From: Desulfoarculaceae bacterium
GTDB taxonomy: Bacteria > Desulfobacterota > Desulfobulbia > Desulfobulbales > Desulfocapsaceae
Direction of reading: 5' to 3'
Assembly: GCA_019429465.1 (NCBI GenBank)
Contig: JAHYIV010000002.1
Span: 1-64,000, forward strand
DNA length: 64,000 bases
Shown: positions 4,172 through 60,927 of the stretch, piece after piece
Layout: every line of letters starts with the position of its first letter
Position numbering within the stretch: position 1 is the first letter of the stretch
Notes under the pieces: model-generated
Seen by the model: only the letters and a program-made list of their open reading frames with translations
Told to the model about the DNA's origin: nothing
The model's database searches: none
Made by a program: the position numbers and the translations under genes

Positions 4172-6049
4172 ATGCACAAATTACTGACTGATGAACCGGG
4201 CAAAAAAATGCTGCTGCTCGGCAACGAGGCCATCGCCCGGGGGGCGATTGAGGCCGGAGTGGCGATCACCGCCGCCTATCCTGGAACACCATCTTCTGAG
4301 ATTTCTCTTAATTTTTTCCAGATGTCTCAGGAAAGTGATCTCTATTTTGAATACAGCGTCAATGAAAAGGTGTCTCTCGAGGTGACGGCGGCGGCGGCCA
4401 ATACCGGGGTGCGAGCCATGTGCGTCATGAAACATGTCGGCATGAATGTGGCAGCTGATGCCCTGGTGACCCTCGCCTATGTGGGAGTCAGAGGCGGCTT
4501 AGTCATCCTGGTGGCCGACGACCCTTTCATGTTCTCCAGCCAGAATGAACAGGACAGCCGTTATTATGCCAAACTGGCCGGTCTGCCCATGCTGGAGCCC
4601 TCTTCGGTTGCCGAGGCCAAGGAGATGACCCGACAGGCCTTTGATTTGTCCGAACAACTGCAGGAACCCGTTATCCTGCGCACCACCACCCGGGTCAATC
4701 ACTCGACGGACGTGGTAGAATTGGGGCCGATCAGCAAGGCGGAGACCAGGGGAACATTCAGCCGCAATCCCATGCGCTACGTGACCATCCCGGCGGTATC
4801 GCGCCAGCTTCATGTTCGTCTCCTTGACAATCTTGACAAGGCCATGGCCGTGGCCGAGCAGTCACCATTCAACTTTTCCGAGGGCAGCGGTCCCGGGGGC
4901 ATCATCTGCAACGGCGTGAGCTATAATTATGTGGCTGACGCGGTCCAGGATCTCAATCTGGATGGCCAGGTAAAAATCCTGCGCCTCGGCTTTACCCATC
5001 CCCTGCCCGAGCAGCTGATTAAAGACTTTCTCGGCGGCTGCGACAAGGTGCTCATCGTTGAGGAAGGTGAGCCGGTGCTGGAAGAGGGGATCAAGGCCCT
5101 GGCCCAGGAAGCAAAAATGACCATGACCATCTCCGGCAAGGACCAGGCGCTCTTTTCCCGGCTCTATGAATTTGACCCGGCCCTGGTCAGAGAGAAGATC
5201 GCCTTCTACTTCATGGGGGCCGATACCACGGCCACCAGCAGCCCGGCCCGGCCAGGCCAGGCAGGTCTGCCACCCCGGCCACCCACCTTGTGCGCCGGAT
5301 GCTCGCACCGCGCCGCCTTTCATGCCGTCAAAAAAGCGGCTGAAGGTCTGGATGTGATCTATCCCACCGATATCGGCTGCTACACCCTCGGCATGCTGCC
5401 GCCGTTGGGGATGGCTGACTTTCTGATCTGCATGGGCTCGTCCACCGGCACTGCCGCCGGGTTCAGCAGGACGCTCGATAAAAAGGTGATTGCCTTCTGC
5501 GGCGATTCAACCTTCTTTCACTCTGCCATGGCAGGGCTGGTCAACGCAGTTTTCAACAGGCACAACTTCACCCTGGTTATCCTCGACAACGGCACCACAG
5601 CCATGACCGGCCATCAACCCAATCCCGGAGTGGACATGGAAAAACTGGGTCTCTCCGGTTATGGCCGCATCGATATCGCCGAGGTGGTCAAGGCACTCGG
5701 TGTTCCCCACATGGCGGTGATTGAGCCGTACAAACTGAAGAAGAGCATTGCAACCCTGAAAGAAGCCTTTGCCTTTGAAGGCGTTTCGGTGGTCATTGCC
5801 CGGGAGCTCTGCGCCCTGTACGCCAAGAGCCTGAAAATACCGGCGATGAAGCCCTTTTATGTCAGTGATCGCTGCCGTAATCACAAGGACTGTATCGATC
5901 AGCTTGGCTGTCCGGCTTTTTTCATCAAGGACGGTCGGGTCGCCATTGACCCGGATCGATGCACCGGCTGCGCCGTCTGCGCCCAGGTCTGTCCTGAAAA
6001 CGCCATCCTGCCCATTAAAATAAAGGCTTCACCGGGAGACAAGATATGA
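4172..6049 (+). CDS. iorA: Indolepyruvate:ferredoxin oxidoreductase, alpha subunit
   Basis: This 625-aa subunit oxidatively decarboxylates aryl pyruvates from aromatic amino-acid transamination to aryl-acetyl-CoA and reduces ferredoxin in the cytoplasm. The N-terminal pyrimidine-binding domain starts at LLLGNEAIARGAIEAG. The C-terminal half carries the TPP-binding domain (LCAGCSHRAAFHA near 372, then CGDSTFFH). The last 60 residues form a ferredoxin domain with CTGCAVCAQVCP and an upstream DCIDQLGCPAF Cys group. The ATG at 4172 follows AAAGGAAAG. The stop overlaps the iorB start by 4 bp (ATGA), so the two are translationally coupled. Length is normal for the family. Confidence 0.95.
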   Translation: MHKLLTDEPGKKMLLLGNEAIARGAIEAGVAITAAYPGTPSSEISLNFFQMSQESDLYFEYSVNEKVSLEVTAAAANTGVRAMCVMKHVGMNVAADALVTLAYVGVRGGLVILVADDPFMFSSQNEQDSRYYAKLAGLPMLEPSSVAEAKEMTRQAFDLSEQLQEPVILRTTTRVNHSTDVVELGPISKAETRGTFSRNPMRYVTIPAVSRQLHVRLLDNLDKAMAVAEQSPFNFSEGSGPGGIICNGVSYNYVADAVQDLNLDGQVKILRLGFTHPLPEQLIKDFLGGCDKVLIVEEGEPVLEEGIKALAQEAKMTMTISGKDQALFSRLYEFDPALVREKIAFYFMGADTTATSSPARPGQAGLPPRPPTLCAGCSHRAAFHAVKKAAEGLDVIYPTDIGCYTLGMLPPLGMADFLICMGSSTGTAAGFSRTLDKKVIAFCGDSTFFHSAMAGLVNAVFNRHNFTLVILDNGTTAMTGHQPNPGVDMEKLGLSGYGRIDIAEVVKALGVPHMAVIEPYKLKKSIATLKEAFAFEGVSVVIARELCALYAKSLKIPAMKPFYVSDRCRNHKDCIDQLGCPAFFIKDGRVAIDPDRCTGCAVCAQVCPENAILPIKIKASPGDKI

Positions 6050-22853: not shown

Positions 22854-23105
22854 GTGCCGTTACTGAAAAGAGCAAGGGCCGTTACTTGCTCTTTTCAGTT
22901 TACGGCACCTTATGCCGTTTCCAGCAAACAGCCATCTTTCCCGGATGTTTGCGGGAAACGGCGTCTTGCCGTCTACAACTCCACCTCCTACGTTACTCAC
23001 AAGAGCAAGGGCCGTTACTTGCTCTTTTCAGTTTACGGCACCTTATGCCGCTTCCAGCAAACAGCCATCTTTTCCGGCTGTTTACTGGAAGCGGCATCTT
23101 GGTTA
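22854..23105. repeat. Two tandem copies of a two-hairpin palindromic repeat
   Basis: Copy one (22854-22977) has hairpin A, GTGCCGT...CTGAAAAGAGCAAG with CTTGCTCTTTTCAG...ACGGCAC, then hairpin B, GCCGTTTCC with GGAAACGGC. Copy two (about 22999-23105) repeats both but lacks the outer left arm. Hairpin B carries compensating changes (GCCGCTTCC with GGAAGCGGC), which suggests the structure is selected. The GTTTACGGCACCTTATGCCG stretch recurs at 56836. Copy one starts right at the stop of the glt operon. No protein frame here is believable. Confidence 0.7.
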
Positions 23106-24919: not shown

Positions 24920-25040
24920 ATCTTCCTCTCTGCGCTTATAATGAGTTTAAGGTAAGCCGTTGTTCAAAAATAACTCCTACGATTCATTGTCATTTACGAT
25001 AAGGGGCCGTAAAGAAATGGCTAAAAGGTATGTGTATTTC

Positions 25041-28457: not shown

Positions 28458-30554
28458 TTATTGCGCCTGTTGCATGAAATCAAGCCAGATTGGCGCGGCG
28501 GCGCGGCCCCCGGTCTCATCACGGCCAAGACTGCTGTTCTGATCATAGCCCAGCCAGACGCCGGTAATCATCTTCCTGGTGAATCCGACAAACCAGGCAT
28601 CACGATTGTTGTCAGAGGTTCCGGTCTTGCCACCGCAGAAAACAGGGAGTCCACCGGCCCGTTTTCCTGTCCCTTCTCTGACAACCGCCGCCAGCATTTT
28701 CTGCATCTCTGCCGCCACCTTCGCATCCAGCACCCGTCGCGATTCCGGCCTGTTTTTCATCAGAACCCTGCCCGCCCCGTCTTCAATTTTGCGAATCAGC
28801 AGCGGAGAGGCAAACTGACCACCACAGACAAACGGTCCATAGGCCCCGGTAATCTCCAGCAGTGAGACACCGGTCGCGCCGAGGGCCAGAGAGAGATCCG
28901 CGGTGATCGGCTCGCTGATGCCGGAGGCCTTGGCCAGGGCCCTGACCTTGTCGACGCCCACCTTCTGCAGAAGCTTGACCGCCACGACATTGAGAGAATG
29001 GGTCAGGGCTTCAGCCAGGGACGTCTCGCCATGAAACGTACCGGAAAAGTTCTTCGGTTGCCATTGTTTACCACCATGGCCCTGTATGGAGATCGGCGCA
29101 TCAAGGATCATCGATTCCGGCCGCCAGCCGTTTTCCAGGGCCGTAGCATAGACAAACGGCTTAAAAAGCGAACCCACGGACCTCCTTCCTTGCGTTGCCC
29201 GGTCAAAGGGAGAGGCCCCAAAATCAAGACCTCCGACCAGGGCCCTGACCTCACCGCTGCAGGCCTCAAGGTTCACCAGCGCCCCCTGAGGCAGCTCTTG
29301 CTGCCCATTGTCTGTTGCTTCTTTTGACAACTGGCCGGAAGATCGTACCAGAGAGGCTATCACCCCCCGGCGGACAGCGCGTGTGGCCGCGAGCTGCAGG
29401 TCAGGATCCAGGGTCGTGAAGATCCTGACCCCGGCATAATTCAACGAAAGACCGAGCTCAGCTTCCGCCTGTTTGCGTACCATCTGCACAAAATAACCGC
29501 TGTTCTCACGGCCGACACCCTCCGACTGCCTGAGTTGCACCGGCGACAAAAAGGCCTGGCGCGCCGCCTCAGGGCTCACGTAGCCATCCTCTGCCATCCG
29601 GTTTAAGACATAGCGCTGTCGCTGCTGCGCCAGTTCCAAATGTTCCAAGGGTGAATAACGGCTTGGCGCCTGCGGCAGGCCGGCCAGGAGGGCCATCTCG
29701 CCGAGTGTCAGTTCCCGCGCATGTTTGTCGAAATAGAGCTGAGCCGCTGCCTCAACCCCGTGGGCACCGCCCCCGAGATAGATCTGATTGAGATAGATAT
29801 AGAGGATCTCGTCTTTCGTGAGCAGGCTGTCTATGCGCCAAGCCAGGATAGCCTCTTTCAATTTTCGCAGATATGTTTTTTCTGGAGAGAGCAACAGCGA
29901 ACGAGCGACCTGCTGGGTGATCGTGGAACCGCCCTGACCTCGCCGGCCCGCCATGGTATTATTGACAACAGCCCTGAACACCGACCAGATATCAAGACCG
30001 GGATGGTCATAAAAACGACCGTCTTCAGCAGCGACAAAGGCCTTGGGCAGCAGGGTCGGCATCTTCGAGAGCGGCAGCAGGGTTCTGTTTTCGATAAAAA
30101 CGCGGTCCATCACCTTGTTGTGCCGGTCAAGGATCTCAGTGGCCTGCAGGGGACGATAGTGCGAGACAGAGTTGATCGCCGGAAGCTCAAGGGACTTGAA
30201 GGCGGCCAGGAGCATCCAGATAAAAAGGGTGATGAGCAGACAGATGCCAAAGAGAAATCCGATGATATGTTTTTCATTCAACGGCTTTCTCCGGGGTGCT
30301 GACCGGCGCGGAGGTTTTGCTGGCTGACGGGGTCCTGCTTTTGGTCTGGAGGAGGGCACGGGGGCTTGTTGGTCTCGGCTAAAGATGGACAAGAGATGAT
30401 TGATATTTATAGACAACGGATCAATACCACAGACGAGACAGAGTTTACAGGGAGAAATTGATCCCCTGCTCAATAATTGTCGAAATGGAATAAGGTCAAA
30501 ATGCCTTTCTTGTGGTATAAAATAAAGCTGTCCACTAAATGCCTCACTATTCAT
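28458..30554 (-). CDS. Class A penicillin-binding protein (transglycosylase/transpeptidase)
   Basis: A 698-aa bifunctional peptidoglycan synthase. A cytoplasmic Pro/Arg-rich region (residues about 62-92) precedes one transmembrane helix (about 97-118). The GT51 domain follows with catalytic AAEDGRFYDHPG and GGSTITQQVAR. The transpeptidase domain has SLFKP (Ser-x-x-Lys), SLN and KTGTS near 660. The ATG at 30554 has an excellent AGGAGG 7 bases upstream, so the unusual 60-residue N-terminus (MNSEAFSGQL...) is probably real. Only 19 bp separate it from the divergent LOG-domain gene, so their promoters must overlap each other's 5' ends. Confidence 0.93.
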   Translation of the reverse strand: MNSEAFSGQLYFIPQERHFDLIPFRQLLSRGSISPCKLCLVCGIDPLSININHLLSIFSRDQQAPVPSSRPKAGPRQPAKPPRRSAPRRKPLNEKHIIGFLFGICLLITLFIWMLLAAFKSLELPAINSVSHYRPLQATEILDRHNKVMDRVFIENRTLLPLSKMPTLLPKAFVAAEDGRFYDHPGLDIWSVFRAVVNNTMAGRRGQGGSTITQQVARSLLLSPEKTYLRKLKEAILAWRIDSLLTKDEILYIYLNQIYLGGGAHGVEAAAQLYFDKHARELTLGEMALLAGLPQAPSRYSPLEHLELAQQRQRYVLNRMAEDGYVSPEAARQAFLSPVQLRQSEGVGRENSGYFVQMVRKQAEAELGLSLNYAGVRIFTTLDPDLQLAATRAVRRGVIASLVRSSGQLSKEATDNGQQELPQGALVNLEACSGEVRALVGGLDFGASPFDRATQGRRSVGSLFKPFVYATALENGWRPESMILDAPISIQGHGGKQWQPKNFSGTFHGETSLAEALTHSLNVVAVKLLQKVGVDKVRALAKASGISEPITADLSLALGATGVSLLEITGAYGPFVCGGQFASPLLIRKIEDGAGRVLMKNRPESRRVLDAKVAAEMQKMLAAVVREGTGKRAGGLPVFCGGKTGTSDNNRDAWFVGFTRKMITGVWLGYDQNSSLGRDETGGRAAAPIWLDFMQQAQ

Positions 30555-30573
30555 TTTTCATCCTCCTGGAAAT

Positions 30574-33081
30574 ATGCCCATGAAACGCCCGCCCTTGCTC
30601 ACCGAAGATGGCTACCTCCTGATTGCCCCTGAGACCGAACCGACCATTGACCAAAAGCTGGGTGTTCCCAAGCTGGCGGCAACGCTCCGTTTTGAGGAGA
30701 CCAGCGACACCGTCCGCGGCGTCATCAGTGACATCATGGCCCTTGGTCGCTCTTCATCCATCCCTGGCGCGCGCGACACAGCGCCGTCCATGGCCCCTGG
30801 TCGCTCTTCATCCATCCCTGGTGCGCGCGACACCGGGCCGTCCATGGCCCTTGGTCGCTCTTCATCCATCCCTGGTGCGCGCGACACCGGGCCGTCCATG
30901 GCCCTTGACAATCTGCGGCGGCGTTGCTCCCTGATTGGTCGAAGCGGCCATTCGCAGATCGGCCTCGATCTCGATTTCGGTGACAGTATGCCGGAAATTG
31001 ACACCCGGCACAAACGCATCGATATCCCCATCTACCTCTTTTCCTTGAACCCCAACATCCCGGATATCCTCTTTGCCGAGATCAAGTCCATGGCCGACCG
31101 CAACCGGCGGCTGACCGCGGGCAGGCTCTTCATCCCCATGACCGCTGCACTTGGACGCGCCGAGATCGAAGAAGCGGCAGCCAATCATTATCTGCTGTTG
31201 CCTCCCGGGGCCACCATTGACCAGGAGGGGGTCATCACCCTCCCCCTGGAAAACAGCCGTTATCTACTGTCAAACACCCTGCTCAGCGCCGGCCAGAATA
31301 TCCAGGTCGTGCTCAGCGAGAGCAAGGAGGGGTTGGGGCTGATTCAATACCCCTCCCGCTGCGGGCTGCCTGCCTCGCTCGCCCCCGGCGACTTTCTCTG
31401 TGGGGCCATCCGCATTTCTCTCGGCCCCTACAGCGCCCTGATCGACAGAGACCTCAACGAACCTAATGTTTTTCATCTGGCCGCCAGACTGCTTGATGCG
31501 GTGCGAACCAGCGGCATCAGGGTTCCAAGACAAGTTGAAATCTACAATGGCAGCGACCAGCCCATTTCCCCTGACAGACTGCAGGTGCGGCTCCGCCTCT
31601 TCCCCACAGACCTGAGCACCACCCGGATGACCAAGCGCCTGCTGAGCACCAGTCAGGCCAGGAGAATCATGGAGGAGGGAGTAGATTTTGCCGATGCCAC
31701 CAATATCTTTGATCTGGATGTCAGTGACGCCCTGTTCGACAATATAGGTAAAAATTCAACGATACGGGGAAATTACGGCCGCATATTGACCAGGAGCAAG
31801 TGCATAGATATCCAATGGGAGCTGCAGGAAAACGAGTGGCATGAGGCCGCCCAGAACCGGATTGTCTATGAGGCGGTCCGGGGCACAATTACCTCCGGCG
31901 TCCATCAGGGAGCCCAGATCGACTCTGATTTGAGGCAATTCACCGAGACCCTCGATCTGGTCGGCGGTGCCCAGAACCTGCGCAAGGTCTTTGTTGCCCA
32001 TCAATTCCCGACCACCGATACCCTCCGTGTACTCAAGCATAACAACGTCGGTGTTTTTATCGGACGCAGCATCCGCCAGGGCGAGTCACAGGAAAACGGC
32101 ATCCATTGCCATCCCCTGCTGCCGCCCCCGGACAATCTTTACTTCGGAGGAGCTACCTATGAAACCTTCTGCGAGATGGCCTGCCGCGAAGATGTCCGTT
32201 TTTACATGCTTTTCGGACAGAACGACGAAAGACACCTGCGCGAGTTCCACCGCGGATTCTGGATGACCAGAGAGGGCAAGGAGAGAATCGCAGACACCCA
32301 CACTATGATCGCCATGTTCGGCTCCCATATTGACGGGACGGAGGGGGTGCTCAGCCAGCAGATTCACGATTTCTTTGAGCAGCTCCGTTCCGTTCCCGAA
32401 ATCGGAGACCATTTTGCGGTCTGTCACGGCAGCGGCCCCGGCGTCATGAAGATCGCCGATGACACGGCCGCAGCCCTCGGCATCCTGCGCATCGGTGTCG
32501 GTATCGACTCCGAAAAGATAGGTCAGCGCGCCAATCTCGCCCCGCCGATCCTGCTCAATTTCAACAACTCCGCCCGCCACATGCGCCAGAACATCCTCGA
32601 CCGCACCTCCCTGTTCAAGATCTACAACATTGGCGGCATGGGCACCTTTGAAGAGATGCTCATTGCCGTCACCAATCTCAAACTCTTTGAGAGCCTGCCT
32701 GCCCCGCACATCTTTGTCGACCCCTTCGGCCTGGGCGAGAACGGGGCCCATCTGTGGCAATCCACCCTGAAACAGCTGCAGACCATCTCGACCACCAAGC
32801 AGATCGATAGCCACAGTGTCCGGCTGGCTCCGTCCTGGGTGCCCAATTTCTGTCATGTGGCCCCGGATTATAAGGCGGTGCTGGCCATCATCGCCGAATT
32901 TGTCCATGACCCGGTAAGCTACTGGCAGAAGACAGGAATCCCGGACCAGGATCTTCTCCAGGCCTGGGATAATGCCGTCCGCAACAAGGTGATCATTCCG
33001 CCCTATCTGCAACAGGCGATCCTGGTCGTGCACGGGCGGGCTGAGCATTCACTCTCTTCATCAGATGAGAGTGAGAACTGA
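30574..33081 (+). CDS. Large protein with C-terminal LOG (lysine decarboxylase-like) domain
   Basis: An 835-aa protein. Residues about 560-780 carry LOG/TIGR00730-like motifs: HGSGPGVMKIADDTAAALG and GGMGTFEEM at residue 687 (family PGGxGTxxE). Small LOG enzymes release cytokinin bases or act as nucleotide 5'-monophosphate phosphoribohydrolases. The 550-residue N-terminal part is unrecognised. Residues 55-108 are three perfect-phase 18-residue repeats (ALGRSSSIPGARDTGPSM) encoded by a 54-bp tandem repeat (30736-30897), a module also found in mutL. The start is ATG 30574 or 30580; neither has a strong ribosome site. Divergent to the PBP gene. Confidence 0.75.
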   Translation: MPMKRPPLLTEDGYLLIAPETEPTIDQKLGVPKLAATLRFEETSDTVRGVISDIMALGRSSSIPGARDTAPSMAPGRSSSIPGARDTGPSMALGRSSSIPGARDTGPSMALDNLRRRCSLIGRSGHSQIGLDLDFGDSMPEIDTRHKRIDIPIYLFSLNPNIPDILFAEIKSMADRNRRLTAGRLFIPMTAALGRAEIEEAAANHYLLLPPGATIDQEGVITLPLENSRYLLSNTLLSAGQNIQVVLSESKEGLGLIQYPSRCGLPASLAPGDFLCGAIRISLGPYSALIDRDLNEPNVFHLAARLLDAVRTSGIRVPRQVEIYNGSDQPISPDRLQVRLRLFPTDLSTTRMTKRLLSTSQARRIMEEGVDFADATNIFDLDVSDALFDNIGKNSTIRGNYGRILTRSKCIDIQWELQENEWHEAAQNRIVYEAVRGTITSGVHQGAQIDSDLRQFTETLDLVGGAQNLRKVFVAHQFPTTDTLRVLKHNNVGVFIGRSIRQGESQENGIHCHPLLPPPDNLYFGGATYETFCEMACREDVRFYMLFGQNDERHLREFHRGFWMTREGKERIADTHTMIAMFGSHIDGTEGVLSQQIHDFFEQLRSVPEIGDHFAVCHGSGPGVMKIADDTAAALGILRIGVGIDSEKIGQRANLAPPILLNFNNSARHMRQNILDRTSLFKIYNIGGMGTFEEMLIAVTNLKLFESLPAPHIFVDPFGLGENGAHLWQSTLKQLQTISTTKQIDSHSVRLAPSWVPNFCHVAPDYKAVLAIIAEFVHDPVSYWQKTGIPDQDLLQAWDNAVRNKVIIPPYLQQAILVVHGRAEHSLSSSDESEN
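30736..30906 (+). repeat. 54-bp coding module, three tandem copies plus 9 bp
   Basis: Copies lie at 30736-30789, 30790-30843 and 30844-30897, each ATGGCCCTTGGTCGCTCTTC followed by ATCCATCCCTGG and GCGCGCGACACCGGGCCGTCC. A 9-bp partial fourth copy (ATGGCCCTT) closes the array. Copies 2 and 3 differ at a single base; copy 1 differs slightly more. The unit is 18 codons, so the frame is kept. The same module occurs once in mutL, and its core in antisense in the PP-loop gene. Confidence 0.9.
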
Positions 33082-33084
33082 AAT

Positions 33085-33153
33085 CTCGCGCAGAGGCACT
33101 GAAACGCCGAAGAAAAATATTGCTATCTGGTTTTTTTTCATTCTCTGCGCGAG
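33085..33153. repeat. 11-bp inverted repeat between LOG gene and mutL
   Basis: CTCGCGCAGAG (33085-33095) and its exact reverse complement CTCTGCGCGAG (33143-33153) enclose 47 bp with a T8 run. The words resemble the common 'CTCTGCGCGAG' dispersed repeat of proteobacterial genomes. It might serve as a weak terminator for the LOG gene. Confidence 0.45.
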
Positions 33154-33245
33154 GAAAATTCTTTCTATTGAATAGTTATAAAATTGATATATTATTCGAT
33201 ACGGTACCTCCCTAAGAACCATTCATCCTTCAATCGCTGCCTATC

Positions 33246-35177
33246 ATGTCCAAGATCCGCATCCTCCCAGAGCAACTGGCCAACCGTATTGCCGCCGGCG
33301 AGGTCGTCGAACGTCCGGCCTCGGTGGTCAAAGAACTGCTGGAGAACAGTCTGGATGCCGGCGCCAGCCGAATCGAAATCGAGATTGAGGGCAGCGGCAC
33401 CCGCCTGATCCGGGTCATGGATAACGGCGAGGGCATGGACGAGGACGACCTGCTCCTCTGCCTGGAGCGACACGGAACCTCCAAGATCGCCAGCGACCAG
33501 GATCTGACCGCCATCTGTTCCCTGGGCTTCCGGGGCGAGGCCCTCCCCTCCATCGGCTCGGTGTCACGCATGACCATCACCTCCCGCACTCAGGATTCAC
33601 CCCTGGGCACCAGGGTCGTGCTCGATTATGGCAAACTGTTCAAGGTGCACGAGATCGGTTGCAGCCGCGGCACAATCTTTGAGATCCGCAACCTCTTCGG
33701 CAAAACCCCGGCCCGCAGAAAATTCCTGCGCACCGACAAAACAGAACAGGCCCATATTGAAGAGGTCGTTAAAAGCTACGCCCTGGCCGCACCGACCACC
33801 ACCTTTATCCTGCGCCGGGATGAACGTACGATCCTTCATTTTGAAGAAAACCAGTCTCTGACGGATCGGCTGAAGTCCATCATGCACTACCAGGGTCAAT
33901 TCATGGAGATTGGCAAAGCGGTAAACAGCAACCTGGCCTGCGGCCGCTCTTCCGCCGTCCTTGGCTCGAGCGCCACTGGGCCGTCCGTGGCCTGCGTCCA
34001 CGGCTATCTCCTGCCGCCGGAGGTAACCGTGACCGGCTCGGCCGGGATCCGGCTGCTGGTCAATGGCCGGGCCGTCCGCGACCGGATGATCGTTCATGCC
34101 GTTGCTGAAGGATTACGTAACTTTCTCATGAAAGGAAAAAACCCGGTCGGCCTCATCCACCTGTGCCTGCCGCCGGAGGATGTTGATGTCAATGTCCATC
34201 CGACCAAACAGGAGATCCGTCTGCACAACAGCCAGGCCATCCACCAGATGATCAGCCAGACCGTGGAACAGGCCATACAGCGACATCAAAAAAATATCCA
34301 GACCACCATCTTTCGGCCAACCCTGTTTCACGACAACCGGCCACAGCCACCACAAGCAGTACCTGAAAACAGTAGTCCGCAGGCGGCACCACCCAATTAC
34401 GCACCCAGACAGACATCATTTTTCACAGAATCAAGCCCCGCCCCGACATCACCCAGTCAGCCAGGACTCCACACCCGGCCACCAGCAGTCGGGATAACAG
34501 ATGGGCCTGCCCTGCTGCAGAGCGCGGAACCCGAACCGCCCCTCACCCGACATTCCCCCGGCAATCTGCAAAGTCCGCCTGCGCCACGCGTTCCCGGACA
34601 CGGCCTGAAGGTCATCGGCCACTATGACAATCTCTATATCTTCTGCCAGTCAGCCGACGGCGGGCTCCTGGTGGTTGACCAGCACGCCGCCCATGAACGC
34701 CTCCTTTTTGAAGACCTGAAACAGCAGTTCCTGCAGGGACAGATCGCCAGTCAGACCCTGCTTTTCCCGACGACCGTCGAGCTGTCCATTACCGAGACAG
34801 AACGGGTAGAATACTATACGACGGAGATCAAACAGATGGGATTTACGGTCAGGGAATTTGGAGGCAGCTCCTTTATCATCTCCGCCATTCCCGCCTTGGC
34901 TGGTCAATGCAATCCAGGGGAGCTCTTTCTCGATATCCTGGAGAGATTCGGTAGTACCGAAGAGAAGAAGGCAAGAGGTTCCATGCTCGACGACATCCTG
35001 GCCTCCATGGCCTGCAAGGCTGCGGTCAAGGCCGGAGATGAGCTGCACGCACGTGAGGTTGATGCCCTCCTCAACCGCATGGCCAGGGCCGATCTCTTCT
35101 CCCACTGTCCCCACGGACGGCCGGTCCTGAAACATTTCACCGCCACGGAGGTAAAAAAATGGTTCCACCGCACATGA
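33246..35177 (+). CDS. mutL: DNA mismatch repair protein MutL
   Basis: A 643-aa GHKL ATPase that couples MutS recognition to downstream repair. The N-terminal domain has IAAGEVVERPASVVKELLENS (catalytic Glu), DNGEGM and a GFRGEALPSI lid. The C-terminal dimerisation domain has DQHAAHERLLFE and ACKAAVKAGD. No DQHAxxExE-type endonuclease motif with the following Glu is obvious. Residues 230-247 (LACGRSSAVLGSSATGPS) are an insertion matching the LOG-gene 54-bp module, placed before VHGYLLPPE in the transducer domain. A Pro/Gln-rich linker covers about 360-455. Start ATG 33246 lacks a clear ribosome site. Confidence 0.95.
   Translation: MSKIRILPEQLANRIAAGEVVERPASVVKELLENSLDAGASRIEIEIEGSGTRLIRVMDNGEGMDEDDLLLCLERHGTSKIASDQDLTAICSLGFRGEALPSIGSVSRMTITSRTQDSPLGTRVVLDYGKLFKVHEIGCSRGTIFEIRNLFGKTPARRKFLRTDKTEQAHIEEVVKSYALAAPTTTFILRRDERTILHFEENQSLTDRLKSIMHYQGQFMEIGKAVNSNLACGRSSAVLGSSATGPSVACVHGYLLPPEVTVTGSAGIRLLVNGRAVRDRMIVHAVAEGLRNFLMKGKNPVGLIHLCLPPEDVDVNVHPTKQEIRLHNSQAIHQMISQTVEQAIQRHQKNIQTTIFRPTLFHDNRPQPPQAVPENSSPQAAPPNYAPRQTSFFTESSPAPTSPSQPGLHTRPPAVGITDGPALLQSAEPEPPLTRHSPGNLQSPPAPRVPGHGLKVIGHYDNLYIFCQSADGGLLVVDQHAAHERLLFEDLKQQFLQGQIASQTLLFPTTVELSITETERVEYYTTEIKQMGFTVREFGGSSFIISAIPALAGQCNPGELFLDILERFGSTEEKKARGSMLDDILASMACKAAVKAGDELHAREVDALLNRMARADLFSHCPHGRPVLKHFTATEVKKWFHRT
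33933..33995 (+). repeat. 54-bp coding module inside mutL (single copy with flanking 9-bp direct repeats)
   Basis: CTGGCCTGCGGCCGCTCTTC starts a 54-bp unit aligned to the LOG-gene module. The endings CACTGGGCCGTCC and CACCGGGCCGTCC correspond. It begins exactly on a codon boundary and is read in the same frame as in the LOG gene (GRSSxxxGxxxTGPS). NTGGCCTGC occurs at both edges (33933-33941 and 33987-33995), as ATGGCCCTT does in the LOG array. Confidence 0.8.
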
Positions 35178-35764
35178 CGCACCAGCAAACAGTTCCTGCC
35201 CTGGACATCCACCACGTCCGGACAGCCCTCATCATCCTTCTTGGTCTCACCCTGCTCTTCTCCGGCTGCGCCAAACGACAGATCGACAGCGGCGAGGGCC
35301 GTGGCCGGGCCATGGAGGTCACAGCTTACTGCAGTTGCTCTCAGTGCACCGGCTGGGATCGCGGGAGCTGGCTCTTTCTCAAGCTCGACTTCTGGAATCG
35401 CTATGTTAATTATGGAAGCCATGCCGGACGCCCCTATACCGGCCTGACCGCCAGCGGCACCACCCCCACTGAACCCCGGCCCGGCTTCTTCTCTGTCGAC
35501 TCCCTGCAACGCCCGTGGATGATCCCCGCCCGGCTTATCCTCTTTCCCTGGTACTTCCTGCCCGAGAAGGGCACCATTGCCGCCGACACCAAATACTATC
35601 CCTTCGGCACCCGAATGTTCATCCCCGGCTATGGTTGGGGAATAGTGGAAGACAAGGGCGGGGCGATTAAGGGTCCGGACCGGATCGATCTCTACTTTCA
35701 TTCACACCAGGATGCTCTCCAATGGGGGAGAAAAAAGGTCAACGTTGAGATTGAACGCCGCTGA
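35159..35764 (+). CDS. 3D-domain lipoprotein
   Basis: A 201-aa predicted lipoprotein. A hydrophobic segment TALIILLGLTLLFSGC has a lipobox LFSGC, giving an acylated Cys near residue 38. The mature part has a 3D (Asp-Asp-Asp, double-psi beta-barrel) domain: VTAYCSCSQCTGW, LTASGT, IAADTKYYPFGTRMFI, VEDKGGAIKGPDRIDLYF. This fold is shared with the catalytic end of MltA-type lytic transglycosylases and cell-wall proteins. ATG 35159 has GGAGG 7 bases upstream and overlaps the mutL end by 19 bp. ATG 35174 is also possible. Likely periplasmic and envelope-related. Confidence 0.82.
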   Translation: MVPPHMTHQQTVPALDIHHVRTALIILLGLTLLFSGCAKRQIDSGEGRGRAMEVTAYCSCSQCTGWDRGSWLFLKLDFWNRYVNYGSHAGRPYTGLTASGTTPTEPRPGFFSVDSLQRPWMIPARLILFPWYFLPEKGTIAADTKYYPFGTRMFIPGYGWGIVEDKGGAIKGPDRIDLYFHSHQDALQWGRKKVNVEIERR

Positions 35765-40170: not shown

Positions 40171-41214
40171 CTACTCCACTGCCCACCCCTGAAATATTGT
40201 ATCATCAAGGGGCAGAGCCATCAGAATTTGTGTTTCTTTTTCCGCAGTAACCCGTACTTCTCCTTCCGGAGAGCCCTCTTTTATCTTCCTGCCGAAGCGC
40301 ACTACCAGCGATGCCGCCAGTTGCAAGTCCTCCTGCGACACTGGGCCATCCATGGCCTGCGGTCTCCGGAGAATGGCTGTCGGACCGGGACGAACCGGCA
40401 TGGAGAGTACCACGTCATCCTCCTGGGCCATGGTCAACAGGCGATCATTTTCCTGCTCATTGCGCCCCAGGATCAACCAGCCGCCACCAGGAAGGACGAA
40501 CTGACGTCCCACCAGCAGCAGACAGACATCAGCCACCGTGATATCTTCGGCCTTGATAATAAATTTTCCTTGATAGATACGGGCTATCCGGCGGCTGAGG
40601 ATAGGATCAGCCAGGATACAGCCACCGGCCGGGCTCGGGAAATCCACAATCCCAAACTCCCTGGCAAGGGCAATCTGGCGGGAGCGGCTACGACCACTCA
40701 TATCAAACAGTTTTTCCCGATCAATCCAGCCTTGGGCCTCGGCCTCTGTCTCCGGCAGCAGCTTGGCCGACAGAGGCCGCAACAGGAAACGATCCGCTCC
40801 GGAATCCCGCTCAATCACCCGCAGGGTATCACGACGCTGGGACATGGGACGCTGGCCCAGCACCTCACCGGTAACCAGAAAAGAGGCGCCGAGTTCGGCC
40901 ATCATCGCTCTGGCCCGGGTAAGCATGAGAATCTTGCAGTCTATACAGGGATTGAAGTTTTTGCCGAAACCATGCTGGGGATTACGGAGCAGATCAAGAT
41001 AGATGTCGCTGAGATCTTCAAGAAACACCTCAATCCCATACTTTTTAAAGATCTCCTTCTGGTAGGCCTCACGAGAGGCCAGCAGCTTATAATCAAAAAA
41101 GGGGGTCACAAATTTGACGGCCATCACCCTGAGGCCCTGCGCCGCCACCACCCGGCAGGCAAGCATCGAATCAAGGCCGCCTGAAAAAAGGGCCAGGGCC
41201 GTTATCTGGGACAC
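40171..41214 (-). CDS. PP-loop ATP pyrophosphatase, tRNA thiolation-like (ThiI/MnmA type)
   Basis: A 347-aa protein. The N-terminal PP-loop SGGLDS near residues 11-16 and FNPCIDCKILML near 87-98 resemble tRNA 2- or 4-thiouridine synthases. LGQRPMSQ and SPAGGCILADP near 212 carry the second conserved Cys. The C-terminal 110 residues are an extra domain. Within it RRPQAMDGPVSQ is encoded by the antisense core of the 54-bp module (40335-40364). It overlaps the recN 3' end by 13 bp, so they are co-transcribed. The modified base is not determinable from sequence alone. Confidence 0.8.
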   Translation of the reverse strand: MSQITALALFSGGLDSMLACRVVAAQGLRVMAVKFVTPFFDYKLLASREAYQKEIFKKYGIEVFLEDLSDIYLDLLRNPQHGFGKNFNPCIDCKILMLTRARAMMAELGASFLVTGEVLGQRPMSQRRDTLRVIERDSGADRFLLRPLSAKLLPETEAEAQGWIDREKLFDMSGRSRSRQIALAREFGIVDFPSPAGGCILADPILSRRIARIYQGKFIIKAEDITVADVCLLLVGRQFVLPGGGWLILGRNEQENDRLLTMAQEDDVVLSMPVRPGPTAILRRPQAMDGPVSQEDLQLAASLVVRFGRKIKEGSPEGEVRVTAEKETQILMALPLDDTIFQGWAVE

Positions 41215-42932
41215 TGAGTCCCCTCTTTCTGCTGCACCTTCTCCTTCTGCCCATCCCTTCCCTTGGCCAGCAGCTCGAGGGCCCAGGCCCGGGTCTGGCC
41301 TGAGGCTGAATCACCTGCCAGCATCCGCGCCAGCTCATCCACCCTTTGGTCAGGGGCAAGCAGAGAAAATGAAGAGAGGGTTCGACCACGCTCCATCTGC
41401 TTGGCCACCAGAAAATGACTGTTTCCCCTGGCGGCAATCTGCGGCAGATGAGTGACACAAAAGACCTGATGATGAGTGGCCAGCTCCTGGATCTTGCGGG
41501 CCACCGCCTCTGCGGCCTCTCCGCCAATCCCCGCGTCCACCTCATCAAAGATGACGGTCTCGACCATATCTTTCCTGGCCAGCAGACATTTGAGCGCCAG
41601 CATCAGCCGGGAGAGCTCGCCACCGGATGCCACCTTGGCCAGAGGCCTGGTCGGTTCCCCCGGATTTGCCGAGAAAAAAAACTCCACCCGATCCCAGCCG
41701 TTACTTCGTATCGTCTCCAGCCCTTGCCCCTGTTCCTGAAAATGGACCTCAAATCCTGACTGGTTAAAGGCAAGCGAATCCAGCTCCGCCGCCATGGCCT
41801 GTGTCAACTGCCCTGCCGTCTGCCGACGGCTGTCGGAAAGGGCGGCAACCTGGCGCCTTGTTTCCTGTTCGAGGTCGGCTACCACCGTCTCCAGTTCACT
41901 CATATTCTTATCCATATTGTCAATGAGCTGCAGTTCACTTTCCGCGGCCTCCGCATAGGCAAGAACCGCCTCCAGGGTATCGCCATATTTACGCTTCAGA
42001 TGCTGCAGTCCGTTGATCCGCTCATTCACCTGTTCAAGACGGGCCGGGTTGTGGGCGAGCGAGTCCTTGTAACTGCGCAGCTGGCTGACAAAGTCCTCTG
42101 CCTGATAGCTGTAGGCGGTAAGCTCGGCCGCCAGCCCCGCCACTTCGGTGTCAAGCTGAACCACCTGTTCCATGTCCCGCCTCACTTCAAACATCCCGTC
42201 CACCAGGGTGGATGAAAAAAACCGATACACCTTCTGACTGAGCGCGATCAGGGCATCGGCATTTTTAAGCCGTTTTCTCTCTGCCGCCAGCTCCTCATCC
42301 TCACCCACAATCGGCCCGATCTGCCGGATCTCTTCAAGCTGATAGTGCAGAAAATCGCGCCGCTGCTCCTTGTCCCGTTCCTGCCTGCGAAGCCTGCTCA
42401 GTTCCTCCTTCTTCTGCTGCCACTGTGAAAAAATCCCGGAAAACCGGGTACGTTCCTCCCAGTGCTCACCTAAAGAATCAAGGAAATCAAGATGAAGGGC
42501 TGACTGCAGCAGCTGCTGATGGTCATGCTGGCTGGCGACATTGAGCAGATTCCCGGCCAGCATCGAGACCATTTTCACCGTTGCCAGGGAGCCATTCACA
42601 TAGAGCCTGCTCTTGCCGCTACTGGTAAGAATCCTCTTGAGCACCACGGTGCCATCATCCCCAAAGCCGGAATCCTGCAGGGAATGGAGCAATGCATGAT
42701 GGTTTGCATTGACCACAAAAAGCGCCTCCACCACACACTGATCCGCACCATTTCGTATCCAGTCCACCTGTGCCCGGCCGCCCATGAGCAGGTGAATGGC
42801 CCGCAGCATGATCGATTTCCCGGCACCTGTCTCACCCGTCATCACCACCAGGCCACTCCCCTCTTCCTGATCAAAATGGAGGTGCAGGGATTCAATCAGG
42901 GCCAGATTTTCAACCTTCAGTTCACACAGCAT
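41202..42932 (-). CDS. recN: DNA repair protein RecN
   Basis: A 576-aa SMC-like ATPase in double-strand break repair. The Walker A TGETGAGKSIMLRAI lies near residues 33-47. A long coiled coil covers about 150-370. ABC signature ASGGELSRLMLAL and Walker B VIFDEVDAGIGG follow, then CVTHLPQIAA. Length is typical. The start LCELKVENLALIES is the usual RecN N-terminus. It is followed by the PP-loop gene with a 13-bp overlap. Confidence 0.95.
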   Translation of the reverse strand: MLCELKVENLALIESLHLHFDQEEGSGLVVMTGETGAGKSIMLRAIHLLMGGRAQVDWIRNGADQCVVEALFVVNANHHALLHSLQDSGFGDDGTVVLKRILTSSGKSRLYVNGSLATVKMVSMLAGNLLNVASQHDHQQLLQSALHLDFLDSLGEHWEERTRFSGIFSQWQQKKEELSRLRRQERDKEQRRDFLHYQLEEIRQIGPIVGEDEELAAERKRLKNADALIALSQKVYRFFSSTLVDGMFEVRRDMEQVVQLDTEVAGLAAELTAYSYQAEDFVSQLRSYKDSLAHNPARLEQVNERINGLQHLKRKYGDTLEAVLAYAEAAESELQLIDNMDKNMSELETVVADLEQETRRQVAALSDSRRQTAGQLTQAMAAELDSLAFNQSGFEVHFQEQGQGLETIRSNGWDRVEFFFSANPGEPTRPLAKVASGGELSRLMLALKCLLARKDMVETVIFDEVDAGIGGEAAEAVARKIQELATHHQVFCVTHLPQIAARGNSHFLVAKQMERGRTLSSFSLLAPDQRVDELARMLAGDSASGQTRAWALELLAKGRDGQKEKVQQKEGTQCPR

Positions 42933-59557: not shown

Positions 59558-60577
59558 TTACTTCATATGTCGGGTCGTAAGTCGTTTGAGAGTCAGAGAG
59601 GTAAATTCCTGGTATTCCGGCGACAGATTTTTCAAGGGAACCTCTGCCCGGGCAGCCTCTTTATGCCCGCCTGCTGACCCCACAGCGCCAAAGATGCGGG
59701 CAGCAAGTTTTCCCGCATTTTTTCGATAACCATCACAACGAAAGATCACAATCAGCCGCTCACCGTGGATACCCGAGACAAAGACCCAGTCCACCTCATC
59801 AACATGATTAAGAAAATCAGCAATCATCACTAGCACATCAGGACTACGAACCTTACCGACATGCGTGTATAGGCGCCGTTTTGAATATTTCATCTCTGCC
59901 AGTCCGGCAAGAAAATATTTGAGCTCAGAACGCCTCAGATCAGTAAGCTCAATCTTTCTCACCAGATTTCTATTGGCCAGGGTAAAGAGATAACGGAACG
60001 AGATCCCGTCAGAGAGACGGGATTGTTTCTCAAAATTACGGGTATCCACCTTGATCCCGTAAAAAAGAGCGGTGGCCGTGGCCACAGTGGGCTTGATGCC
60101 GGCCGCGCGCAGATACTCCACAAGCATTGAGGAGGCAGCACCATAATCCGGACGGATATCGACAAAAGTAGCCTGGCACTCGCCTGAAAAGGGATGGTGG
60201 TCAATCACGGCATCAAATTTAACCTTCTCAAAGCAAGGAAGATGTGCTGGTTGCGAATCAACCAGCACTTTCTTGCTGAAGGCATCGAGTTTGATTGTGT
60301 TCCACCGTTCCAGTGGAATCTTCAGCCGTTGCACCATGGCGATATTATTCAATCGTCGAATTTCATTCGGATGGGCGATAACGACATTCTTCACCCTGTA
60401 GCGAAGCAACTGCTTGATTGCCATGGCACAGGCCAGGGCATCGGGATCTGCACTGATACAGACAAGGACCTCATCCTCTTTTTCAAAGACATTCCAAAAT
60501 CCCTGTAAACGTTCCTTGGCAGTCTTGCAAGAGACACTCACCGGCGCGCAGACGCCATTTTTTTGTTTTATAGCCAT
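59558..60577 (-). CDS. DHH/DHHA1 phosphoesterase (NrnA-like)
   Basis: A 339-aa enzyme with the DHH motif set: SADPDALACAMA, VLVDSQ, AVIDHHP and, after the DHHA1 domain, GSAGGHKEAARAEVP. Family members degrade short RNAs (nanoRNase), pAp or cyclic dinucleotide intermediates. I use ATG 60577 (MAIKQKNG); the longer frame to 60676 is unlike the family. There is no strong ribosome site. It precedes the glgC pair by 60 bp on the same strand. Confidence 0.85.
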   Translation of the reverse strand: MAIKQKNGVCAPVSVSCKTAKERLQGFWNVFEKEDEVLVCISADPDALACAMAIKQLLRYRVKNVVIAHPNEIRRLNNIAMVQRLKIPLERWNTIKLDAFSKKVLVDSQPAHLPCFEKVKFDAVIDHHPFSGECQATFVDIRPDYGAASSMLVEYLRAAGIKPTVATATALFYGIKVDTRNFEKQSRLSDGISFRYLFTLANRNLVRKIELTDLRRSELKYFLAGLAEMKYSKRRLYTHVGKVRSPDVLVMIADFLNHVDEVDWVFVSGIHGERLIVIFRCDGYRKNAGKLAARIFGAVGSAGGHKEAARAEVPLKNLSPEYQEFTSLTLKRLTTRHMK

Positions 60578-60927
60578 TTCAATATATCCAGTCACTAAAG
60601 ACTGTAATTTTCCATGCAGGTTAGAAGTCGCAGCAAATAACCTTTCTATCCCTGACCATTGCGAAACACAGGCCAAGGTGGACCGAGTATCGCTCGCTCC
60701 ATGGGGGGGTAAAGAGCAATCGGATCCTAGTGCCGATCACAAAACGCCAAGAGAAAGATCTTTTTGACTACGACTTATCAAATTAAAATAATACTTTACT
60801 ACTATTCATTCAAGCAGCACATCAGGAATCCGCCGTTCCGCTGCCCCAGGAAACACCAGCCCATCAATTTCAATCATAGCATATCGCCAAGCAGGAGCGC
60901 AAGCCCGACACACAACACCAGGCCTCT
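60578..60927. other. Gene-free stretch, nothing recognised
   Basis: About 350 bp between the DHH gene and the end of the ASKHA gene. No RNA gene, repeat-family copy, terminator with a clear U-tract or conserved frame was seen. It probably contains the DHH gene promoter near 60600-60680, but no good -35/-10 pair stands out. Confidence 0.4.

Follow-up and report, generated by a model that had tools for sequence, protein, structure and literature searches.

Why should two unrelated neighbouring genes carry the same stretch of code in the same reading frame? The question is raised by the window analysed here, by which is meant the whole stretch of 64,000 nucleotides from a Desulfoarculaceae bacterium, in which a gene with a LOG-like domain and the mutL gene downstream of it share a 54-bp module. 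Coding-compatible palindromic elements are best known from Rickettsia, whose RPEs are short palindromic repeats that occur between genes and also, with the frame kept, within genes for unrelated proteins. Such elements are known from REPs too, and their mode of movement is unsettled. The initial annotation took the module for a coding-compatible selfish repeat in the manner of the Rickettsia elements, and this view is now supported by many copies, by close orthologues that lack the unit and by a set of unrelated hosts. Overall, we put the probability at roughly 0.7 that the module belongs to a family of mobile, non-autonomous palindromic elements of the REP/RPE kind, which, as we infer, would move as single strands by a Y1 transposase acting in trans, with guide pairing.

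The 54-bp unit and its two hairpins

The host genes in the window, the copies of the unit and their flanks are as follows.

30574..33081, + strand: first host gene, the LOG reading frame; 835-aa protein with a weak C-terminal LOG/lysine-decarboxylase-like match
30736..30744, + strand: 9-mer ATGGCCCTT on the left flank of the LOG array; target sequence, with ATGGCC native in several empty relatives
30745..30798, + strand: LOG unit 1, 54 bp; 63.4 bits with the covariance model
30799..30852, + strand: LOG unit 2, 54 bp; 71.5 bits with the covariance model
30853..30906, + strand: LOG unit 3, 54 bp; 71.5 bits, sequence identical to unit 2
33246..35177, + strand: second host gene, mutL, 643 aa, downstream of LOG; from reading frame and Pfam
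33933..33941, + strand: 9-mer CTGGCCTGC on the left flank of the mutL unit; equals the unit's own right end at 8 of 9 positions
33942..33995, + strand: mutL unit, 54 bp; 71.1 bits with the covariance model
33943..33974, + strand: hairpin 1 of the mutL unit (unit positions 2-33)
33979..33992, + strand: hairpin 2 of the mutL unit (unit positions 38-51); 5' arm the proposed guide, 3' arm part of the right end
40319..40360, + strand: shortened copy, antisense in a ThiI-like reading frame (40174-41310, - strand); 36.9 bits
60668..60721, - strand: decayed copy lying in frame in a DHH-family reading frame (59561-60736, - strand), at its N-terminal end; 34.2 bits

The arrangement first described, with three tandem units in LOG and one in mutL at equal phase and frame, is confirmed by the open reading frames, by Tandem Repeats Finder (period 54, 3.2 copies and 95% matches for the LOG array) and by R1, a covariance model built from 46 units. 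The LOG units encode GRSSSIPGARDT(A/G)PSMA.. and the mutL unit, in the same codon phase, GRSSAVLGSSATGPSVAC; the identity of LOG units 2 and 3 suggests a local tandem duplication. In the Pfam scan, PF03641 and PF18306 score below their curated cut-offs in the LOG frame. In mutL, the DNA_mis_repair (transducer) match has the unit at its N-terminal edge. The position of the inserts in the protein folds was judged by aligning the sequences of relatives and, in the case of MutL, also those of solved MutL chains. Besides the four LOG and mutL units, R1 reports the two decayed copies at 40319-40360 and 60668-60721, two more rows at E ≥0.6 being treated as noise, and a unit-derived 20-mer has five matches in the window at ≤3 mismatches against 0.02 expected by chance. 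No known RNA family reaches its gathering score in 30000-35200. Another palindromic-looking repeat, with a 133-bp unit in 1.8 tandem copies and 91% matches, occupies 22858-23101.

The repeated 9-mers said to bound the units are real as repeats, but they are not borders as such: they comprise the unit's right end (positions 46-54) and a look-alike left flank. At LOG the left 9-mer is partly host sequence, ATGGCC being already present in several insert-free relatives, for instance G004 (genomes are numbered, with G000 the bacterium's own).

The unit consists of two hairpins kept by compensatory changes, also when the coding copies are taken alone. The stem of hairpin 1 is formed by positions 2-8 with 27-33 and, further in, by 13-16 with 21-24, that of hairpin 2 by 38-42 with 47-51, and the apex of both reads CC(A/G)TCCNTGG; the consensus starts with GGTCGC and finishes with TGC. 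Across 44 distinct units, 90.5% of the cells are paired, as compared with 84.0% after shuffling and 31-42% when the partners are slid, and double-sided changes number 38 against 10.4 in shuffled sets. Among the 31 coding units alone the figures are 90.7% paired and 30 double-sided changes against 9.9, and the strongest pair, 40-49, is C-G in 30 units and G-C in 13. Less striking are the number of pairs with a double-sided change (17 of 500 shuffles) and that of further pair types (68 of 500). Folded as single-stranded DNA the consensus reaches -13.6 kcal/mol (z -3.1); a LOG unit (z -2.0) and the mutL unit (z -0.75) stand out less.

Dispersed copies, host genes and empty sites

Further copies, which had been expected elsewhere in the genome, are abundant. 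Own genome G000 (2.84 Mb, 72 contigs) holds at least 135 by R1 at E ≤0.01, a lower bound from 150 scored candidates, and a DNA search gave 47 matches, the last five at E >0.1. Among the other genomes of the genus, 14 of 16 carry 13-84 copies each (R1) and the two without are 55% and 63% complete; with the own genome included, units occur in 15 of 17. A sample of the class contains 31 genomes out of 257 with a match at E ≤1e-4, 15 in the genus and 16 in other genera, where 15 genomes have 1-5 copies and G057 has 17; these counts are low estimates, since 22 candidates were scored per genome under strict filters, and three of the 16 genomes show 7-8% contamination. In G057, which belongs to another family, four strong and two weak divergent units lie inside 1.5 kb (L144 / L211), with at least 17 overall, and one unit has its stem altered on both sides (GTCGGGC/GCCCGAC). 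A pattern scan of named genomes returned three contigs, all from Desulfobulbaceae MAGs (Kiruna2_bin-2539, UBA2213 and LH_M57). An ordinary minisatellite expansion, with LOG and mutL alike by chance, or an artefact of the assembly would fit the tandem LOG array with its two identical units, but the dispersed copies, found in 28 Pfam-supported reading frames of the own genome and in 15 of 17 genomes of the genus, refute both chance and artefact, and the chance of such an origin is negligible.

In the window and 30 further loci of the own genome, 45 arrays were examined (60 copies by DNA search, 60 by R1). A Pfam match at E ≤0.001 was found in 28 of the 30 host reading frames scanned and none in two, LOG being counted among the 28 although below its cut-offs. 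Named from their Pfam domains, the hosts include a Mur ligase, a PurF-like amidotransferase, PepN, HypE, HypF, IspD/F, a RecD-like helicase, RecC, HolB, CbiD, KdtA, a TilS-like protein, an RlmL-like methylase, a D-Ala-D-Ala carboxypeptidase and a B12 radical-SAM protein. One short cobalamin-gene stretch, L026 (C45:1-5000), with CbiD and a TP_methylase/methyltransferase frame, has six units in both orientations, five of them clear and one weak, and in a glycosyltransferase frame a complete unit is nested inside hairpin 2 of another (L020 1487-1581).

The 28 Pfam-supported frames contain 32 insertions, two weak copies (L018 1410-1463 and L021 182-217) included. Eighteen lie on the same strand in phase 0, with the consensus peptide GRSSSIPGASDTGPSMAC, and eight on the opposite strand in phase 2, with QAMDGPVSLAPGMDEERP; the remainder are in same-strand phase 2 (four), opposite-strand phase 0 (one) and opposite-strand phase 1 (one), with none in same-strand phase 1. 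Five of the six classes are thus occupied, in both orientations and in unrelated genes. The two leading classes take 26 of the 32 insertions against a share of 0.33 expected from GC^G sites in the same frames (binomial p 2.5e-8); they encode small-residue peptides with Pro/Asp, and the rare classes encode Trp-, His- or Met-rich ones. We read this bias as selection for tolerable peptides, bearing in mind that the hosts were chosen as open frames, a choice that alone disfavours the stop-containing class. The unit can be tolerated within genes because its 54 bp correspond to 18 codons and a stop occurs in just one of the six consensus frames, opposite-strand phase 0, the other five being open.

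The idea that most copies are genic had to be dropped, many of the own-genome copies being found in palindrome A, a second abundant and intergenic repeat of ~100 bp with the arms TAAGGAGCCGTAACGAAA / TTAGGAGCCGTTACGAAA. Genome-wide in G000 its arm has 177 matches at ≤3 mismatches, as against 2 for a control; the hairpin folds with a z of -7.8, and a divergent arm lies near 25000-25017 of the window. Some copies of palindrome A hold the unit between TAAGGAGCC and GTAACGAAA, the gain amounting to a whole multiple of 54 bp in L025 and in L015, where there are three units, with one base extra in L030 and three in L023. Because eight own-genome units, among the matches listed, stand 31-32 bases from an arm, palindrome A and the unit probably spread as one composite. 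Moreover, as the intergenic copies too are mostly 54 bp long, this length seems to belong to the element and not to be imposed by reading frames.

Orthologues from up to 17 genomes were compared at 13 sites, in mutL, LOG, HypE, IspD, HolB, Mur ligase, PepN, radical SAM, RecD-like, TIM barrel, RecC, HypF and a glycosyltransferase. At most of the sites tested the unit is a clean block of 54 bp or a multiple, tandem at some (LOG, Mur ligase), and the occupancy of a given site varies by species. In mutL (16 genomes, three diverged rows set aside) there is one unit in G000, G004 and G014 and more than two in G001, with decayed units in G006 and G012 and none in seven genomes. In LOG (12 genomes) three units in G000 and one in G001 are accompanied by decayed ones in G014, G010 and G003 and by seven empty sites, G004 reading ATGGCCGCC^GGTCTC. 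HypE has one unit in G012, G016 and G000 and is empty in G002 (ACATCCGGC^GATCCC), HolB gains 54 bp in G000 relative to the empty G009 (GATGCCTGC^GGTCAT), and the Mur ligase gains 54 bp in G003, 108 in G000 and 162 in G010. The RecD-like and TIM-barrel genes are filled in several genomes; PepN, radical SAM and HypF are filled in G000 and empty in all eight relatives aligned per gene, drawn from 15, 8 and 13 listed genomes, respectively. A filled and an empty site differ by an exact multiple of 54 bp at 10 of the 13 sites, the multiples for the Mur ligase being taken off its alignment; the difference is 66 bp in IspD and RecC, and the glycosyltransferase site is ambiguous.

The 18-residue blocks had been suspected of being lineage-specific, and close orthologues do lack them at the same sites, in 7 of 16 genomes for MutL and 7 of 12 for LOG. 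Given these unit-free orthologues and the exact multiples of 54 bp, the units are, as judged by alignment, lineage-specific insertions. Site states were called by eye, and 18 rows were excluded because they were too diverged, failed to align or had no place on the tree. The remaining states comprise 47 filled (decayed included) and 102 empty, and at least 33 changes are needed on the mutL tree, which has one internal node with a support of 0.20. Units that occupy one site in several genomes resemble each other more closely than units from different sites do (0.83 vs 0.76, p 0.0004, the units being picked from the mutL and other site alignments), and a rare variant at the RecD-like site is common to G006 and G001. 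On this evidence some insertions look old and shared, and their unit-free sisters seem to have lost them cleanly, in our view by slippage between the flanking repeats; independent gain at one same site is a possible alternative to a shared old insertion.

It is evident from the two orientations, the five occupied classes, the unrelated genes and the copies in intergenic palindromes that DNA spreads here, and not a protein domain. A linker or domain duplicated between genes and kept for its function in the protein would account for the one recurrent peptide of the commonest frame. However, antisense and shifted-frame copies yield other peptides, the intergenic copies in palindrome A share the structure, the hairpins covary and close relatives do without the unit at the same site, so that a protein-level module is barely credible and was rejected. 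Translational bypass, by which the ribosome would skip the 54 nt between like codons and leave the proteins without the peptide, is somewhat better placed and still highly improbable. The hairpins exist, and the codon before the unit equals its last codon in several same-frame G000 copies (LOG, mutL, RecD-like, TIM, HolB), but in HypE, PepN and IspD of the same genome these codons are unlike. Further, a skipped gap would tolerate stops, and the stop-bearing consensus frame (opposite strand, phase 0) is used by one of the 32 insertions and is open in that copy, although the host list was itself drawn from open frames.

Target sites and the proposed mode of movement

Target choice was examined at 12 empty sites, eleven from G004, G002, G009, G015, G012 and G008 together with palindrome A of the own genome, by scoring every position for its likeness to the last nine bases of the unit under a leave-one-locus-out profile and taking the rank of the true site. 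Unit ends were taken from G001 for LOG, G012 for HypE, G003 for Mur and otherwise G000. The tests were conceived after the sites had been seen, with ends and states picked by eye, and on that post hoc footing the empty targets resemble the element's own 3' end (Fisher p 5.8e-8, 12 sites). Half of the targets (Mur, TIM, LOG, RecD-like, HolB and radical SAM) rank within the top 2.6%; the other half fall outside the top tenth, at 0.100 for mutL, 0.108 for HypE, 0.19 for PepN, 0.29 for IspD, 0.40 for HypF and 0.56 for palindrome A. A target also fits the end of its own unit better than the ends of other units, with 65 of 108 matches vs 56.5 (p 0.003, the same 12 sites, likewise post hoc); by part, the last three bases give p 0.026 and the five guide-paired bases alone p 0.067. 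Units with a GGGCA arm sit at TGCCC (TIM in G000) and those with a GGCCA arm at TGGCC (LOG in G001, Mur in G000), and a like pattern is seen in the N-terminal copy of a phage terminase, known from the filled site alone, with GCGCCCTAC on the left and GTGCCCTAC as right end. These arm and target matches are what IS608-like guide pairing would give, and a right end derived from the target at some sites is also possible.

The latter thought leads to an insertion of the same palindromic element by a staggered cut, with a 45-bp core and a 9-bp target duplication from which the match between the 9-mers would follow. Across 34 arrays, the left 9-mer and the right end agree at 4.82 of 9 positions within a locus vs 3.89 between loci, a difference reached in 0 of 2000 shuffles. 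Moreover, left flank and right end can have an unusual last triplet in common (TAC/TAC for the unit in the phage terminase, GTT/GTT in the TIM-barrel gene of G009); that such triplets sometimes equal the target's is also what a partial target duplication would give. At LOG, the TIM barrel and other sites, where target and right end are alike, duplication and target choice look the same. However, HypF, PepN and palindrome A show a net gain of 54 bp without target duplication, with a right end (TGGCCTGC) unlike the target; some left 9-mers look like remnants of upstream tandem units; and a simple duplication leaves the covariation of core positions 38-42 with the right end unexplained. We consider a staggered cut unlikely.

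In the preferred reading, that of a palindromic element of the REP/RPE kind, the unit would move as single-stranded DNA by a transposase of the Y1 (HUH) type supplied in trans, and would insert 3' to a target resembling its own right end. The 5' arm of hairpin 2 may pair with the right end and with the target, in the way of the IS200/IS605 guide sequences, and precise loss, suggested by the patchy occupancy, could be helped by the short direct repeat that target and right end form around the unit. A more specific version is offered tentatively: a self-addressed micro-transposon, whose hairpin-2 DNA guide would pair with its own end and with the next target, differing guides homing to different gene sites, and whose length, open frames and flanking repeat would make gain and loss frame-neutral and reversible, with proteins being shaped genus-wide.

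A Y1 transposase is our best guess for the putative mover. Y1_Tnp matches are present in 17 of 17 genomes of the genus, and in the own genome this domain occurs in two long open frames, of 334 and 294 aa. No unit was found by R1 at E ≤1 around 33 Y1 loci of the genus, some Y1 matches being without a locus, and an association with a RAYT was thus looked for and not found. Collections of plasmids and phages gave no match to a two-unit query, and a pattern scan gave one viral contig with the unit. This contig, L304, has units at 2614-2667 and 4560-4613 (75.7 and 62.0 bits), one in frame at the N-terminus of the terminase large subunit and the second in another reading frame. Phages could be carriers of the element between hosts.

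Meaning and comparison with known systems

The value of this family lies in its many copies across 17 genomes at graded distances, and in core enzymes (MutL, RecC, RecD-like, HolB, HypE, HypF, PepN and IspD) whose occupied and empty sites can be matched. One can thereby follow at each site how targets are chosen, which frames are used, how tandem arrays grow and how units are lost. Whether hairpin arms serve to guide the DNA to its target becomes testable, and the inserts amount to a natural experiment that shows where a protein can take up 18 foreign residues. Many proteins of this group of uncultured bacteria seem to contain pieces of selfish DNA, usually with the reading frame unbroken. In the literature on palindromic elements in coding genes, Desulfobulbaceae included, no report of the 54-bp element stands among the matches listed.

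Like the RPEs, the 54-bp palindromic repeat lies in frame within genes as well as between them, a likeness of behaviour alone; it differs in belonging to another bacterial group and in its two hairpins, the lack of a CGTC tag, the self-like targets and the tandem arrays. The family thus works like an RPE and is not filed as one.

PMC3733652 counts RPE-4 and RPE-6 among the CGTC REPs and describes intragenic GTAG and CGTC REPs as small hairpin repeats within coding sequence in several bacteria, many of them located in genes for replication and repair. The 54-bp unit likewise occurs in some repair and replication genes (MutL, RecC, the RecD-like helicase and HolB), but its consensus ends contain neither the GTAG nor the CGTC tetranucleotide. 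It also departs from GTAG REPs with a RAYT in being absent around the 33 Y1 loci. In this respect it is like the CGTC class of that paper, the Y1 genes of the genus being present and not flanked by units. Intragenic REPs as such are already in print.

The unit resembles IS200/IS605 elements (IS608) and TnpA-REP systems in its hairpins and in its insertion 3' to a preferred kind of target that is retained in the left flank; a target duplication is lacking at clean sites such as HypF and PepN, whereas LOG, the TIM barrel and others would fit a duplication as well as target choice. Guide and target pairing is described for IS608 in PMC5934647 and PMC8266576. Unlike these systems, the unit is gene-free, and its proposed guide would be a hairpin arm and not a tetranucleotide 5' of the hairpin. 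Finally, with MITEs it shares its shortness, its non-autonomous nature and its many copies, whereas whole-unit terminal inverted repeats and a constant target duplication set the MITEs apart from it.
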